The position numbers were made by a program, and so were the translations under genes. A DNA stretch of 61,454 nucleotides from positions 1 through 61,454 of the forward strand of contig BBRT01000070.1 in assembly GCA_001417715.1 (NCBI GenBank). Reading direction: 5' to 3'. The stretch comes from Candidatus Symbiothrix dinenymphae (GTDB lineage Bacteria > Bacteroidota > Bacteroidia > Bacteroidales > Azobacteroidaceae). How positions within the stretch are numbered: position 1 is the first letter of the stretch; every line of letters starts with the position of its first letter. Below the pieces are notes generated by a model. That model saw nothing but the letters and a program-made list of their open reading frames with translations, was not told the origin of the DNA and searched no databases. Shown one piece after another: positions 5,015-51,823 of this stretch.

Positions 5015-5785
5015 ATGAAACAAATCATTGCAATAATTGTTTTTTGCTTGTGTTTCAGCGAATTAGCCGCGAGAAAATACTCCAACCATGAATGGGGTAT
5101 CCATTTCGGCTATGGCTTCGGCGAATCGTTGATTGAAGGGCAATATATAGCCTTAGCGTCTTTGGGTGGCAATTACAGTTACTTTTTCTCAACCAATTTT
5201 GGCATTTCCACAGGGTTGGAAGTCATTCCGTACTCCGATTCTAAAAATGTATATCGCGATAGTGAGGTGCCCATAGAGAAAATCTTCGCCTATGAACGCT
5301 ACTCGCCCGGGGCTCCAATAACAAACTATCTCTATGGATTAGATGGCGACCTTTTATTCCGAACGCATTATGATGGATTGGTGGACAGGCGGTCGACACT
5401 GCTGCTTCAACTACCATTGATGCTGCAATTTCAAACACCGATTTACCGCACAGCCTTTTATTTGGGAGGCGGATTCAAATTTGGCATCCCTATCGAATCT
5501 TACACTTCGCTCAAAGCCGACTCTCGAACAACCACTGTTTATTCGGAATATACAGGCGTGGTCTATAAAAATATGCCTGCACACGGGCTTACAACAACCC
5601 AAAACATCTCTCTCCCCCCTGCCGATCCCGCTAAAACATCCATTATCGGCTCTGTTGAAACCGGCTTCAAAGTGAATAAATCCATAGGCACCGGCACCAT
5701 GTTTCTCTACTTCGTCTTGTATTTTGATTATGGCACCTACTCTGCTGCCGGCATAAAATTTCAAGTGGGCGGCTGGGGGAAATAA
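5015..5785 (+). CDS. Outer membrane beta-barrel protein paired with the BspA-like protein
   Basis: 256 residues with a signal peptide (IIAIIVFCLCFSELAA). The body is a predicted 8- to 10-strand barrel. It is paralogous to the protein at 15011-15790: both have an EWxIH start, SYFFSxNFGxSxGxE-like strands, FRTxY and LLLQLPLxLxxQxPI. Its start is 5 bp after the BspA-like stop, so the two are probably co-translated. The last 67 bases, with the stop and downstream promoter, are duplicated at 6757-6872. PorP/SprF-type barrels partner some T9SS cargo; whether this is one is inference. Confidence 0.75.
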   Translation: MKQIIAIIVFCLCFSELAARKYSNHEWGIHFGYGFGESLIEGQYIALASLGGNYSYFFSTNFGISTGLEVIPYSDSKNVYRDSEVPIEKIFAYERYSPGAPITNYLYGLDGDLLFRTHYDGLVDRRSTLLLQLPLMLQFQTPIYRTAFYLGGGFKFGIPIESYTSLKADSRTTTVYSEYTGVVYKNMPAHGLTTTQNISLPPADPAKTSIIGSVETGFKVNKSIGTGTMFLYFVLYFDYGTYSAAGIKFQVGGWGK

Positions 5786-5834
5786 AGTGTTAAAAAAAAA
5801 CAGGAGGTTGTATTAAAAAAAAGCGTACTTTTGC
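5719..5834 (+). repeat. 116-bp direct repeat, copy 1
   Basis: Covers the last codons of the barrel gene, its stop, an A-rich spacer and the promoter TACTTTTGC. It matches 6757-6872 over the same 116-bp length with only a few mismatches. The two copies bracket the two-gene AbiE-like cassette. Confidence 0.9.
5826..5834 (+). promoter_or_regulatory. Promoter of the AbiE-like cassette (TACTTTTGC)
   Basis: Matches the Bacteroidetes -7 element TAnnTTTG. It lies in copy 1 of the 116-bp repeat and faces the antitoxin-like gene. Confidence 0.65.
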
Positions 5835-6756: not shown

Positions 6757-6872
6757 GTATTGTGATTATGGCACCTACTCTGCTGCCGGCATAAAATTCC
6801 AAGTGGGCGGCTGGGGGAAATAAAGTGTTAAAAAAAAACAGGTGCTTGTATTAAAAAAAAACGTACTTTTGC
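6757..6872 (+). repeat. 116-bp direct repeat, copy 2
   Basis: Second copy of the barrel 3' end, stop codon and promoter, lying directly after the AbiEii-like gene. The barrel coding part has no start here and is a relic. The copy keeps the promoter that now serves the polyprenyl synthase gene. Confidence 0.9.
6864..6872 (+). promoter_or_regulatory. Promoter of the polyprenyl synthase gene (TACTTTTGC)
   Basis: A -7 element of the TAnnTTTG type within repeat copy 2, 13 bp before the start at 6886. Before the cassette arrived, this was probably the single promoter between the barrel gene and the synthase gene. Confidence 0.65.
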
Positions 6873-8819: not shown

Positions 8820-8828
8820 TACCTTTGC
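8820..8828 (+). promoter_or_regulatory. Promoter of structured RNA copy 3
   Basis: TACCTTTGC, about 310 bp upstream of the first gene on this strand (9140), so it implies a long untranslated leader. Confidence 0.65.
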
Positions 8829-8833
8829 CGCGA

Positions 8834-9100
8834 TTTTCAAATGATAAAAAAAAAGCAGTTATATATGTATGGATAAAAACATAGCATAGAGTGAGGTAAG
8901 ACTCACATTGGACGACATTTTGGGCATTAGAGAGCATTAGCTTTTATCTTTCTTGTTGATAAAATTCAGCGATTTTAAAACATAATTGAAAGATAAGTTA
9001 ATGTTTGCGCGACAGCGTGAACTTGACTTATTTGCAATTATCGGGTTACGCTGAATACCTTCAACAAGCGGATATTTTAAGTATCGCGCTTTTTTTACGT
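8834..9100 (+). ncRNA. Candidate structured RNA, copy 3 (leader of the LPP20 operon)
   Basis: No ORF fits this 300-bp stretch. Positions 8895-8924 match 17235-17206 of copy 1 at 25 of 30 bases without gaps, including CACATT and GACATTTTGGG. A hairpin GTGAG-GTAAGA-CTCAC sits at 8891-8906, with the same GTARNA loop as copies 1 and 2. Two longer perfect helices follow: 8944-8952 with 8988-8996 (9 bp) and 9013-9018 with 9048-9053 (6 bp). The end carries the shared CGCGCTTTTTTTA block (9086-9097), which resembles a terminator or attenuator. The conserved 3' part of copies 1 and 2 is absent. Confidence 0.6.
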
Positions 9101-9139
9101 TCATAAAATGACGAAATTAATTTATATAATATAAACGCA

Positions 9140-9325
9140 ATGAAAAAAACATTGATTCTCGCTGCTTCGGCGGCGATTGCAGGCGCAACAGTTGCGGGTT
9201 GCGGGAGTAGTAAGGTGCAGCAACGGGTGTCCGATGAGCAACGAATGCGGATGGATTTTGAGTTTGACCAATATCACAAGCATCTGGGAGGTGAACTCGA
9301 AAAAGGTAAACAAGGAGAAAATTAA
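9140..9325 (+). CDS. Short lipoprotein, internally deleted LPP20-like paralogue
   Basis: 61 residues with lipobox TVAGC (Cys21). The last 30 residues (VSDEQRMRMDFEFDQYHKHL) match the C-terminus of the next gene product (ISDDDKMKMNFEFDQYRKRV). The roughly 140-residue central domain of that paralogue is missing, so this looks like a duplicate with an in-frame internal deletion, or a minimal family member. It is the first gene after structured RNA copy 3 and is probably co-transcribed with 9361 and 10073. Confidence 0.7.
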   Translation: MKKTLILAASAAIAGATVAGCGSSKVQQRVSDEQRMRMDFEFDQYHKHLGGELEKGKQGEN

Positions 9326-16262: not shown

Positions 16263-16883
16263 TTAAAATCTATACCCAACTGAAAATAAGCCATCAATAA
16301 TAGAGCCCGGACCTGATACGGCCCATCCTAAATTATCGAATGCTTTCCCTGCCGGCGCATCATCGGGAACGGGCACGCCGCCAACAAACTTAGCTCCAAT
16401 ATTAACGTCTATTGACCATTTGTCATCTTTCCCGAATAACATTTGATAACCAACTGTAAGCCCTCCGCCCACATTGAAAAATGTTTGCGTTTTTGTAACA
16501 GGATCGCCATTCGTCATGTCGCCAAACATGTCATAGTTTGGCGCAGTTTCACCCTCTTTCAGCTTATACGTTGCGTAATCATTCAGGTGCATACCGAAAA
16601 CGATTTTTGCTTGTGCATAAAATCCTTCGGGCGCATGCTTTTTGAAATAGTACCTGACAATCGGAGCTAATTGACCTCCGGGAAAATCACCATAATAGCC
16701 TGTTAATAAGGCTCCATAACTGATTTTGTCACTCAAAGGCTTTTCGTACTTAATACGAACTCCATGCATAAGTTGAACAGGTGAAATGCCAATAATAGCT
16801 TTCGAACTTTCTGATTGGGCGAACATCGAAACAGATGTCATGATAGCCACACTCACTAAAAATAAATTTTTAAACTTTTTCAT
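16263..16883 (-). CDS. Outer membrane beta-barrel protein downstream of structured RNA copy 1
   Basis: 206 residues with a signal peptide (VAIMTSVSMFAQ). The sequence alternates strand-like segments (GVRIKYEKPL, ISYGALLTGYYGDF, APIVRYYF, FYAQAKIVFGM, FNVGGGLTVGYQM) and ends in the aromatic strand GLFSVGYRF, as in DUF3575/porin-like barrels. The start is preceded by a 7-bp hairpin (CGTCCGT/ACGGACG, 16898-16918) in a leader of about 460 nt. Translation or transcription may therefore be regulated from the leader. Ligand unknown. Confidence 0.75.
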   Translation of the reverse strand: MKKFKNLFLVSVAIMTSVSMFAQSESSKAIIGISPVQLMHGVRIKYEKPLSDKISYGALLTGYYGDFPGGQLAPIVRYYFKKHAPEGFYAQAKIVFGMHLNDYATYKLKEGETAPNYDMFGDMTNGDPVTKTQTFFNVGGGLTVGYQMLFGKDDKWSIDVNIGAKFVGGVPVPDDAPAGKAFDNLGWAVSGPGSIIDGLFSVGYRF

Positions 16884-16939
16884 TTTGAAATGTTTTTACG
16901 TCCGTTCCTTGTACGGACGATTAAATTATTAAAATAGTT

Positions 16940-17347
16940 CCTACTCTAAAAGGCTTCGTAGGTGTCTTGCCCCCTTTTAATCAGTTGTTGGGCAACCGTT
17001 GTCCTTCCTCACAATACGCAGCATAAAAAAAGCGCGGACAAAATTCTAATATCTCTATCCGTACTGTGAGGTCTTCAACTACCTATTGCTCAAATAAAAT
17101 GAATTTGCCCGTGCCGTAGCACGAACGTCTCCACTTTTATCCATTGAGCAATCGTTGAAATTGTTGAAGTTTCACAGCACTCAGAATACAAGCTATAACG
17201 CTTTTCCCAAAATGTCTTAAAATGTGCGTATTACCGCCGTCATGTCATCATAATCTCCTATAATTTAAACAGTTAATCACTCCCTTATCTGCTCATTCAT
17301 TCGAGCCGATACCGGTCGACATTTGCCTATTCATTACTTAGCGCAAA
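16940..17347 (-). ncRNA. Candidate structured RNA, copy 1
   Basis: A transcribed stretch of about 400 nt without a credible large ORF, homologous from end to end to 51342-51742. Helices seen on the minus strand: 17172-17177 with 17064-17069; 17163-17169 with 17073-17079; 17144-17152 with 17085-17093; and a hairpin at 17110-17123 closing a C-UACG-G tetraloop. Copy 2 has the same helices in the same order with different bases. Conserved blocks include GGGAAAAGCG, CGCGCTTTTTTTATG (17021-17037) and a 3' stem CCTAC/GTAGG. It could be a cis leader or a separate RNA ending at the U-tract. Confidence 0.75.
17217..17243 (-). other. Mini-ORF in RNA copy 1
   Basis: ATG at 17243 to TAA at 17217 encodes MTAVIRTF, behind AGGAG. 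Copy 2 encodes MTVVVRTF at the same place (51638-51612). A leader peptide is possible, but the bases also form the GCG-GTAATA-CGC hairpin, and copy 3 has no such ORF. Confidence 0.35.
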
Positions 17348-17354
17348 TTCGGGC

Positions 17355-17363
17355 GCAAAGGTA
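17355..17363 (-). promoter_or_regulatory. Promoter of structured RNA copy 1
   Basis: TACCTTTGC on the minus strand, with a TTTG upstream at about the -33 spacing. It lies about 470 bp from the barrel start, which defines the long leader. Confidence 0.65.
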
Positions 17364-34232: not shown

Positions 34233-34250
34233 AATTCACCATTTTTGGGC

Positions 34251-34259
34251 GCAAAGGTA
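34251..34259 (-). promoter_or_regulatory. Promoter of ATPase A
   Basis: TACCTTTGC on the minus strand, 19 bp before the start; the nearest palindrome of the array begins 18 bp further upstream. Confidence 0.65.
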
Positions 34260-34276
34260 CAATAAAAATTTGAAAT

Positions 34277-34456
34277 ATGCACTATAATAATGCATATTTT
34301 AAAATAAATTGCACTGTGACAGTGCAATTTTTAAAGAAAATTGCACTGTGATAGTGCAATATTTGAAGAAAATTGCACTATGGCAGTGCAATATTTAAAG
34401 AAAATTGCACTGTAGCAGTGCAATATTTGAAGAATATTGCACTGTGGCAGTGCAAT
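34277..34456. repeat. Array of six 32-bp units, each with a 19-21-bp palindrome
   Basis: TTGCACTGTGNCAGTGCAA-type palindromes begin at 34309, 34341, 34373, 34405 and 34437, all 32 bp apart. A diverged unit (ATGCACTATAATAATGCAT) begins at 34277 in the same register. Spacers are 11-13 bp and A-rich (TTTAAAGAAAA or TTTGAAGAAAA), so this is not a CRISPR. Changes in the palindrome centre mostly fall in the loop (GTGAC, GTGAT, ATGGC, GTAGC, GTGGC). Confidence 0.95.
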
Positions 34457-34482
34457 TTATTGATGAGGCTGTTTCAAAAGTC

Positions 34483-34583
34483 TGTCATTGCGGGCTTGAC
34501 CCGCAATCCCTTGCTCTACATTGCTCTGTTGCCCAACATTCGGCTCCTTTTCAGGGGATGGCGGGTCAAGCCCGCCATGACAT
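34483..34583. mobile_element. Full-length palindromic repeat element (REP/MITE-like), about 100 bp
   Basis: The ends are inverted copies: TGTCATTGCGGGCTTGACCC at the left and the complement of TGTCATGGCGGGCTTGACCC at the right. No ORF is inside. The left half is the unit found inside alaS (23023) and the M3 peptidase gene (40570). Translations of this element ([14 protein letters not shown]) recur in many bacterial genomes (recollection). Confidence 0.85.
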
Positions 34584-50648: not shown

Positions 50649-51302
50649 TTACTCCCGAGGAAGAAAATACCACTTCAACCCGCTTGGCACTGTCGTCGTT
50701 ACATTGCTGGTATGAGTTTTTGTGGTTTCATTTTCAGAATCGGTAAAAAACACTATGTTCCATCCTCTCTTCAGGGAAATATTAAAATTATAAATATATG
50801 TCCACCCATCATCTTCTGTTTCCGTAGCTGTTCCGGTTATCGTAACATCCTTGTCAACATAATGGAGACCGGCATCACCTGTTGCATTGCCATACCTAAA
50901 TTCGCCTACTTTGATGCCATCTTTCCATACATAAATGTTAGCATCATCATCATCTTCATACATCTTGGCAGTGCGGTCACTAACTGTTACACCCGTTCCA
51001 AAGTCATCAATAGTAGAAAGATACTTGCTTTCTAAAGTTGTCGGCAATGTGACAGTAAGAGCACCATTGATATACGTCCCTTTTGTTACAGCTCTTGATC
51101 CATCATTTCCTTTCACCTCGAATGTTACAGAGTCAACGGTTGTTGGTACGCCCTCAGTGCTCACAGTCGCCTTGATTTCTGTGATACTTTGCTGAGTGTT
51201 GTTGTTCTCATTCTCATTCTCATTCTCTTTGTCACACGCTGTAAACGTTACCGCTGAAACAGCCATCGCTGCCAGCAAAAATACATTTTTAATCTTTTTC
51301 AT
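50649..51302 (-). CDS. Lipoprotein downstream of structured RNA copy 2
   Basis: 217 residues. Signal and lipobox TFTAC (Cys23), then a flexible DKENENENENNN linker. The rest is predicted beta-rich (TVDSVTFEVKGNDG, GALTVTLPTTL, YIYNFNISLKRGWNIVFFTD) and not matched to a family I know. Its leader is about 450 nt long and homologous to the leader of the barrel gene at 16263, although the proteins are unrelated. Confidence 0.7.
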   Translation of the reverse strand: MKKIKNVFLLAAMAVSAVTFTACDKENENENENNNTQQSITEIKATVSTEGVPTTVDSVTFEVKGNDGSRAVTKGTYINGALTVTLPTTLESKYLSTIDDFGTGVTVSDRTAKMYEDDDDANIYVWKDGIKVGEFRYGNATGDAGLHYVDKDVTITGTATETEDDGWTYIYNFNISLKRGWNIVFFTDSENETTKTHTSNVTTTVPSGLKWYFLPRE

Positions 51303-51341: not shown

Positions 51342-51742
51342 CCTACTCTAAACGGCTTCGTAGGGCTTGCCCCAATTTTATATCAGTTGTTTGGTCAACT
51401 GTTGTCCCTCCTCAGATACGCAGCATAAAAAAAGCGCGGACAAAATTTTTAGTTTTATCTGCTTTCTGGGGCTTAGAACGGGCCGTGCAACCAAATAAAT
51501 GAATTTCACCCGCGCCGCAGCGCGAGCGTTATCACTTTACTTTTTACGGTTGCTTTTTGAGTGTTCTAATTTCAGAAAGTCCAAAGTCAAGCTAAAACGC
51601 TTTTCCCAATCTTAAAATGTGCGTACTACCACTGTCATGTCATCATAATCTCCTATTGTTTAAGCTGTTATCACTCGTATTCGCTCATTCATTCGAGCCA
51701 ATATCGTCCGATATTTACTTAATTCATAACTTTAGCGTAAAT
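51342..51742 (-). ncRNA. Candidate structured RNA, copy 2
   Basis: Homologous to 16940-17347 along its length. Minus-strand helices: 51573-51579 with 51462-51468; 51563-51569 with 51473-51479; 51548-51553 with 51487-51492; hairpin 51511-51524 with C-UGCG-G loop. Each corresponds in order and place to a helix of copy 1 with changed base pairs. A hairpin CAGTTG/CAACTG (near 51382-51399) is a G-U variant of the copy 1 hairpin. Conserved blocks: GGAGATTATGATGACATGAC, CGCGCTTTTTTTATG (51423-51437), CCTACGAAGCC and GTAGG. Confidence 0.75.
51612..51638 (-). other. Mini-ORF in RNA copy 2
   Basis: ATG 51638 to TAA 51612 encodes MTVVVRTF behind AGGAG, the counterpart of MTAVIRTF in copy 1. Confidence 0.35.
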
Positions 51743-51743
51743 A

Positions 51744-51823
51744 TCGGCGGCAAAGGTAAGGATTTTTTTTGAAATGGCAAATCATTGATTTGGTGAATTG
51801 TGAAATTTATCGTACCTTTGTCG
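51744..51823. promoter_or_regulatory. 80-bp divergent promoter cassette, copy 2
   Basis: TACCTTTGC on the minus strand (51750-51758) drives RNA copy 2; TACCTTTGT on the plus strand (51813-51821) drives the endonuclease/phosphatase gene. Near-identical to 47105-47184. Confidence 0.85.

Follow-up and report, generated by a model that had tools for sequence, protein, structure and literature searches.

A multicopy structured RNA core in Bacteroidales, found mostly before genes for predicted exported proteins

The locus and its three leaders

What is encoded by positions 16940-17363 of the window, the whole 61,454-nt stretch of Candidatus Symbiothrix dinenymphae DNA analyzed here, where no open reading frame (ORF) inside the leader exceeds 35 codons? 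An earlier note had proposed a large structured RNA represented by two leaders of about 400 nt that align end to end. The alignment was confirmed: copy 1 and copy 2 match over 423 nt with 75% identity. The strand had to be corrected, as the promoter-like element TACCTTTG at 17363-17356 and the gene at 16883-16263 place the RNA on the minus strand, and we read 16940-17363 as the 5' leader of this minus-strand gene. The two leaders described in the note were joined by a further, divergent third copy on the plus strand. Conservation of the whole stretch of about 400 nt held only in part. The core at 17012-17236, about half of the leader, is far more widely distributed than the remainder, which consists of an extension found mainly in the near kin of the window, plus the promoter element. 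The features of the three copies are as follows (bit scores are from the covariance model R1 described below).

16940-17363, minus strand: copy 1 leader, from the TACCTTTG element (17363-17356) to the module end AGAGUAGG (16938)
17356-17363, minus strand: copy 1 promoter-like element of the -7 type, TACCTTTG, identified from sequence
17012-17236, minus strand: copy 1 conserved core (cmsearch with R1, 181.8 bits)
16263-16883, minus strand: gene 3' of copy 1, 206 aa, with a predicted signal peptide and a DUF3575 match under the Pfam cut-off
51758-51340, minus strand: copy 2 leader, 5' of the gene at 51302-50649
51751-51758, minus strand: copy 2 promoter-like element TACCTTTG, identified from sequence
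51414-51631, minus strand: copy 2 core (R1, 159.9 bits)
50649-51302, minus strand: gene 3' of copy 2, a 217-aa putative lipoprotein with no Pfam match
8820-8827, plus strand: copy 3 promoter-like element TACCTTTG, identified from sequence
8905-9104, plus strand: copy 3, divergent core (R1, 63.4 bits)
9140-9325, plus strand: gene 3' of copy 3, a 61-aa putative lipoprotein

We take TACCTTTG to be the Bacteroidota promoter motif of the -7 type. Elsewhere in the window, a palindromic repeat array (approximately ATTGCACTGTGRYAGTGCAAT, with a spacing of 32 nt) lies at 34240-34488, and a direct repeat of 116 nt with 96% identity is found at 5719-5834 and 6757-6872.

Fold and covariation of the leader core

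The folding energy of copy 1 was -74.1 kcal/mol (z -6.2), and that of copy 2 was -64.3 kcal/mol (z -2.75), with 1 of 200 shuffles equally good. An initial alignment of the host genome's own copies included 19 of 27 loci, from which L016, only 11 nt long after trimming, was then left out. RNAalifold without guidance proposed 44 pairs, 22 of which had changes on both sides. For the covariance model R1 (218 positions, 64 pairs), 52 copies were aligned (A2); of 123 cores, 23 were skipped by the anchor search and 2 for their length, 76 were non-redundant and 52 of these were picked by hand for spread.

Covariation was gauged by pair counts against shuffled and slid controls. With the full structure, 93.6% of the cells in A2 were paired, compared to 84.9% after shuffling and 36-49% when the partners were slid. 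In A3, an alignment of 43 mostly distant copies fitted to the covariance model, 92.1% of the cells were paired vs. 69.1% after shuffling, and 57 of the 64 pairs had changes on both sides; 40 of its 43 rows were outside model building (L157, L158, and L161 are also rows of A2). The corresponding values for A6, in which 18 divergent copies from the host genome were likewise fitted to the model, were 89.5% and 62.2%. The signal in these wider alignments is very strong, and for the 52 and 43 sequences it lies far above both controls, which bears out the proposal that the helices are kept while the bases change. The conserved fold of the leader core is thus strongly supported. Its parts are P1, P1a, P2, a P4-P5 arm, and two hairpins with kissing loops, which are assigned in copy 1 as follows together with the two strands of P7.

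17222-17231, minus strand: P1 5' strand (3' strand 17014-17024, containing a single bulged base; 10/10 pairs have both-side changes in A3)
17173-17180, minus strand: P2 5' strand, CTGTGA/TCACAG (3' strand 17061-17068; 7/7 pairs covary and 98.9% of cells are paired in A3)
17163-17169, minus strand: kissing-loop (PK) 5' strand, in the loop of hairpin P3 at 17157-17173 (7/7 pairs covary and 99.3% are paired in A3)
17073-17079, minus strand: kissing-loop 3' strand, in the loop of hairpin P6 at 17070-17083 (partner of 17163-17169)
17144-17152, minus strand: P4 5' strand, ATTGCTCAA/TTGAGCAAT (3' strand 17085-17093; 9/9 pairs covary and 97.2% are paired in A3)
17110-17123, minus strand: apical hairpin P5a with a UACG loop (94.8% of cells are paired in A3)
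17036-17043, minus strand: predicted P7 5' strand UUUUGUCC (cognate-pairing analysis)
16999-17004, minus strand: predicted P7 3' strand GGACAA (cognate-pairing analysis)

All the helices quoted in the earlier note are present. Three nested helices are, however, not the best reading, as CTTCAAC/GTTGAAG is better explained by pairing between the loops of two short hairpins. In the family, CUUCGAC/GUCGAAG forms a 7-bp helix that connects the P3 and P6 hairpin loops; one pair of P6 is variable (U-A, C-G, or A-U), and P3 shows hardly any variation. The UNCG-type loop was found in the copy 1 hairpin but is not a family feature, as this loop is variable in the 52-copy alignment. The unpaired joining nucleotides carry a mean information of 0.99 bits, compared to 0.88 bits for paired ones.

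Beyond these helices, the bases directly 5' of the P1a 3' strand (UUGUCC and variants) form the 5' strand of a putative pseudoknot, P7, and a complementary partner motif follows about 5-25 nt past P1. The UUGUCC type pairs with GGACAA, GGAACU with AGUUCC, GGCACU with AGUGCC, and GGUACU with AGUACC. Of 92 copies, 52 had a strict cognate 5-mer and 40 did not, compared to 14.5% when the downstream stretches of other copies were used and 8.5% after shuffling; with the common types left out, it was found in 18 of 39 copies vs. 10.4%. By these counts P7 covaries, which supports the pseudoknot predicted from sequence. Among 80 measured copies, a P7-like GG[GA]C[AT] motif no more than 35 nt from P1 ended 34-41 nt 5' of the ATG in 26, and a second group had it about 97-123 nt before the ATG. 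Another helix, P1b, has bases in common with the P7 strand and might allow a switching fold, but its support is uneven, with one-sided changes only in A2, 76% pairing in A3, and covariation in the divergent set.

Distribution and relation to known RNAs

When copy 1 was searched against its own genome (3.52 Mb, 346 contigs) with blastn, 33 matches were found at E ≤ 1, and a pattern scan of a genome collection identified 97 stretches, 95 of which had a profile match at E ≤ 1. In the host genome, R1 identified 50 matches at E ≤ 0.1, of which 44 scored at least 40 bits, or about 43 after removal of the redundant contig C281. This contig had been considered as a source of a second identical copy, which was rejected; because the whole fetched 2115 nt equal the window, contig C281 is a redundant assembly.

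Within the genus, R1 matches at E ≤ 1e-6 were obtained for 29 of 37 genomes (host genome counted). Some larger relatives carried more than 60 copies, with the copy numbers of G002, G010, and G013 being minimum values, and among the genomes with no R1 match were G003 and G022 (99% complete, 1.0-1.2 Mb) and G024 (3.0 Mb). The search of Bacteroidota with the covariance model, suggested in the earlier note, showed the family to be widespread in the order Bacteroidales, in at least 142 of 393 sampled genomes at E ≤ 0.001, and in at least 27 of 296 genomes of a phylum-wide sample, the host genome being counted in both; as 5-7 candidates were scored per genome in these two scans, the counts are lower bounds. 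The number of copies per positive genome varied from 1 to at least 75, and 30 chosen positive genomes had 3 to 75 copies at E ≤ 1e-5. In a control set of 41 genomes of the Parvimonas phylum, matches were found in only one, Parvimonas itself, with a maximum of 29.3 bits. Among the stretches from the pattern scan, the profile matches in Pontibacter and Flavipsychrobacter are weak and are probably due to chance. The named carriers are mostly metagenome-assembled genomes of Bacteroidales (Candidatus Symbiothrix, Prevotellaceae, Dysgonamonadaceae, Tannerella, and Alistipes), plus records named 'Bacteroidia bacterium MS...', and many of these records are presumably of termite-gut origin. The isolate Alistipes muris DSM 112343 had 5 matches at E ≤ 0.1, with a top score of 193 bits.

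The view that the element is not 6S RNA, RNase P RNA, tmRNA, an intron, or a known riboswitch was borne out by Rfam 15, which left the core uncovered in the window and in 50 loci. No match at gathering level was found in the window, and only tRNAs, one DUF805 motif, and one DUF805b motif were found in the 50 loci, with both motifs 3' of the core; at E ≤ 0.01, the matches in seven loci were to a tRNA and, weakly, to rli40 (27 bits against a cut-off of 100), both outside the core. DUF805b RNA (RF02914) resembles the core in context. It is a short element before start codons in Bacteroidales, 16-27 nt from the ATG in 22 of 27 ORF-bearing loci, and the next ORF had a signal peptide by a home-made rule in 16 of 27. 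Its model has 35 positions, however, vs. 218 for the core, and among the scanned loci it exceeded its cut-off of 35.6 bits only in L172 (38.8 bits), 3' of the core. Similarly, DUF805 RNA (RF03081) was located 4-22 nt 5' of the next ATG in 29 of 30 loci, with a signal peptide in 23 of 30 by the same rule, but it has 68 positions and occurs mostly without the core; it exceeded its cut-off of 51.1 bits in L106 (54.5 bits), again 3' of the core, and not in the window. That either motif belongs to the same family as the core was rejected, as only 4 of 60 such loci (L201-L260) had a core match.

A 2017 study reportedly described 224 candidate RNAs. The core leader was not found described in the literature searched, which was covered in part, and such leader control is not named in the consulted passages of a Bacteroides transcriptome paper (PMC7366714) or of a survey of candidate RNAs (PMC2864571). 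Two known systems were compared by description only, as given in excerpts of the respective papers. The FopS/GibS RNAs of Bacteroides, with 14 FopS members, are likewise a multicopy Bacteroidota RNA family tied to surface proteins (i.e., SusC), but are described as trans-acting sRNAs (PMC11697453). The SLH motif is structured and lies 5' of surface-layer protein genes in about 60% of its representatives, but is found in other phyla (Synergistaceae, Firmicutes; PMC6429828). The structured RNA family is real and is new within the reach of these searches.

Genes behind the core and the proposed role

The gene neighborhood was analyzed for 95 of 113 matches, excluding one that was cut off and 17 at or below 52 bits, of which several were antisense. 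In 67 copies the nearest 3' ORF of at least 100 aa was on the same strand and in 3 on the opposite strand, with none in 25, while the nearest 5' ORF was on the same strand in 48, on the opposite strand in 37, and lacking in 10. Thirteen of the 95 matches, some at locus ends, had no ORF within 450 nt. Of 134 copies, 85 had the motif TAnnTTTG no more than 110 nt 5' of the core, compared to 193 of 2680 shuffled windows.

The ORF behind the core usually encodes a protein predicted to be exported. From 161 matches, 120 non-redundant downstream proteins of at least 70 aa were obtained, and by the home-made rule 102 of them had a signal peptide, vs. 95 of 380 background ORFs from the same loci (odds ratio 17). 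By group, the values were 13/14 for the host genome, 60/68 for the named contigs (69/82 vs. 110/413 before redundancy reduction), 20/25 for the order, and 9/13 for the class. A Pfam scan of 107 of the 120 proteins (the 13 excluded manually were longer than 1000 aa in five cases and otherwise short or cut) returned 45 families, of which outer-membrane barrels (7) were the most frequent, followed by carboxypeptidase-regulatory-like domains (6) and the TonB plug (5). The weaker, divergent copies of the host genome are less selective, with a signal-peptide gene next in 7 of 18, and the gene set is therefore envelope-heavy but not envelope-only; the genes behind other divergent copies (10 of the 18 downstream proteins were scanned) include MlaE, MBOAT, acyltransferase, HTH, FHA, HAD, nuclease, and IS66. 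Among the divergent leaders L293-L310, several are 5' of small HTH-like ORFs or acyltransferases, and one is 5' of an IS66 transposase.

The stretch from P7 to the ATG is modular, holding little further, a GAGUARG motif, a hairpin with AAGGA, or a AAGAGUUU...AAACUUUU hairpin. GAGTARG (GAGUARG in RNA), which is DUF805b-like, was found in 42 of 152 copies vs. 2.0% of shuffles (16/22 in the host genome, 18/89 in the named contigs, 8/27 in the order, and 0/14 in the class). The AAGGA-loop hairpin was found at 13 places in the host genome, 11 of them directly past a core (one on the redundant contig), and in many divergent copies the AAGAGUUU...AAACUUUU hairpin stops just a few bases short of the ATG. 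Copy 1 has two such modules.

16938-16977, minus strand: 3' module, weakly DUF805b-like, with the end AGAGUAGG (RF02914, 17.0 bits, below the gathering score of 35.6)
16899-16919, minus strand: small hairpin YCYGYNTAAGGANCRGAYGTAAA with AAGGA in its loop (pattern match at 16895-16917, minus strand, one mismatch)

It should be noted that YCYGYNTAAGGANCRGAYGTAAA hairpins lie mostly 3' of leader cores and 5' of start codons.

A constant core joined to changing modules at the start codon would be expected of a sensor that feeds an expression platform. These 400 bases probably form the 5' portion of an mRNA, with an elaborate, evolutionarily preserved fold. We propose, with a probability of roughly 0.58, that the leader acts in cis and would be transcribed as one unit with the gene behind it, that the core would sense a common signal (an RNA-binding protein or a small ligand), and that P7 together with the 3' module would relay this signal to the initiation of translation on mRNAs that mostly encode predicted exported and outer-membrane proteins. 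Fold, family, distribution, position, and gene class were read from the sequences; from them we infer transcription as one unit, regulation, and its translational level.

The same enrichment before signal-peptide genes of many families, and the many paralogous copies per genome, would also fit a constitutive element that senses nothing and serves in mRNA protection, as a ribosome standby site, or in mRNA delivery to the membrane. We consider this unlikely, although worth weighing: the unpaired joining nucleotides are conserved like the paired ones and a long-range pseudoknot is kept, both beyond what a stability hairpin needs, and some copies precede genes for cytoplasmic proteins.

Less probable still is a family of trans-acting sRNAs encoded 5' of genes, like the multicopy FopS, to which the promoter-like element of its own and the many paralogues could be suited. 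A terminator-like pattern, found in both window copies, could be suited as well, but the single site flagged in each is the P5a hairpin in the middle of the core, with a poor T tract, and between the core and the ATG of these two copies the terminator scan found none. The nearby 3' ORF is, moreover, nearly always on the same strand (67 vs. 3) and at a short distance, and P7 and further modules precede its ATG. The GCGCUUUUUUU stretch was also considered as a terminator and rejected; it is the 3' strand of P1a, with 100% of its cells paired in A2, and the scan flags the P5a hairpin only.

It is very improbable that the family is a mobile or recombining DNA repeat: it is dispersed and multicopy and one divergent copy precedes an IS66 transposase gene, but its covariation is of the RNA type and includes loop-loop pairs, and its copies are oriented to the gene behind. 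A viral or plasmid origin was rejected, as one core used as a query had no match in plasmid or phage collections and the exact pattern had none in a viral collection. A leader-peptide attenuator is the least credible reading, since the 3-codon ORF that suggests it (ATG-NNN-ACN-TRA past AGGAG) lies outside the core, was not found in 78 of 123 copies, and was rejected as seemingly limited to close kin of the window, a weak test given the short stretch searched.

The cis-acting leader is thus the reading that we prefer, and dozens of copies before genes of mostly exported or surface proteins suggest a shared control of the surface of Bacteroidales, which are major gut bacteria and whose surface proteins mediate their effects on the environment. 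More tentatively, and with some doubt, the family may represent a novel class of leaders, sensing a ligand or a protein, that with tens of copies per genome couples much of the Bacteroidales exported proteome to a single shared signal, i.e., an RNA-run regulon of the surface proteome with interchangeable start-codon modules, including DUF805b. If so, the short DUF805b motif could function as a 3' module, and tens of surface-protein genes per genome would be under a layer of RNA control that has no entry in Rfam.
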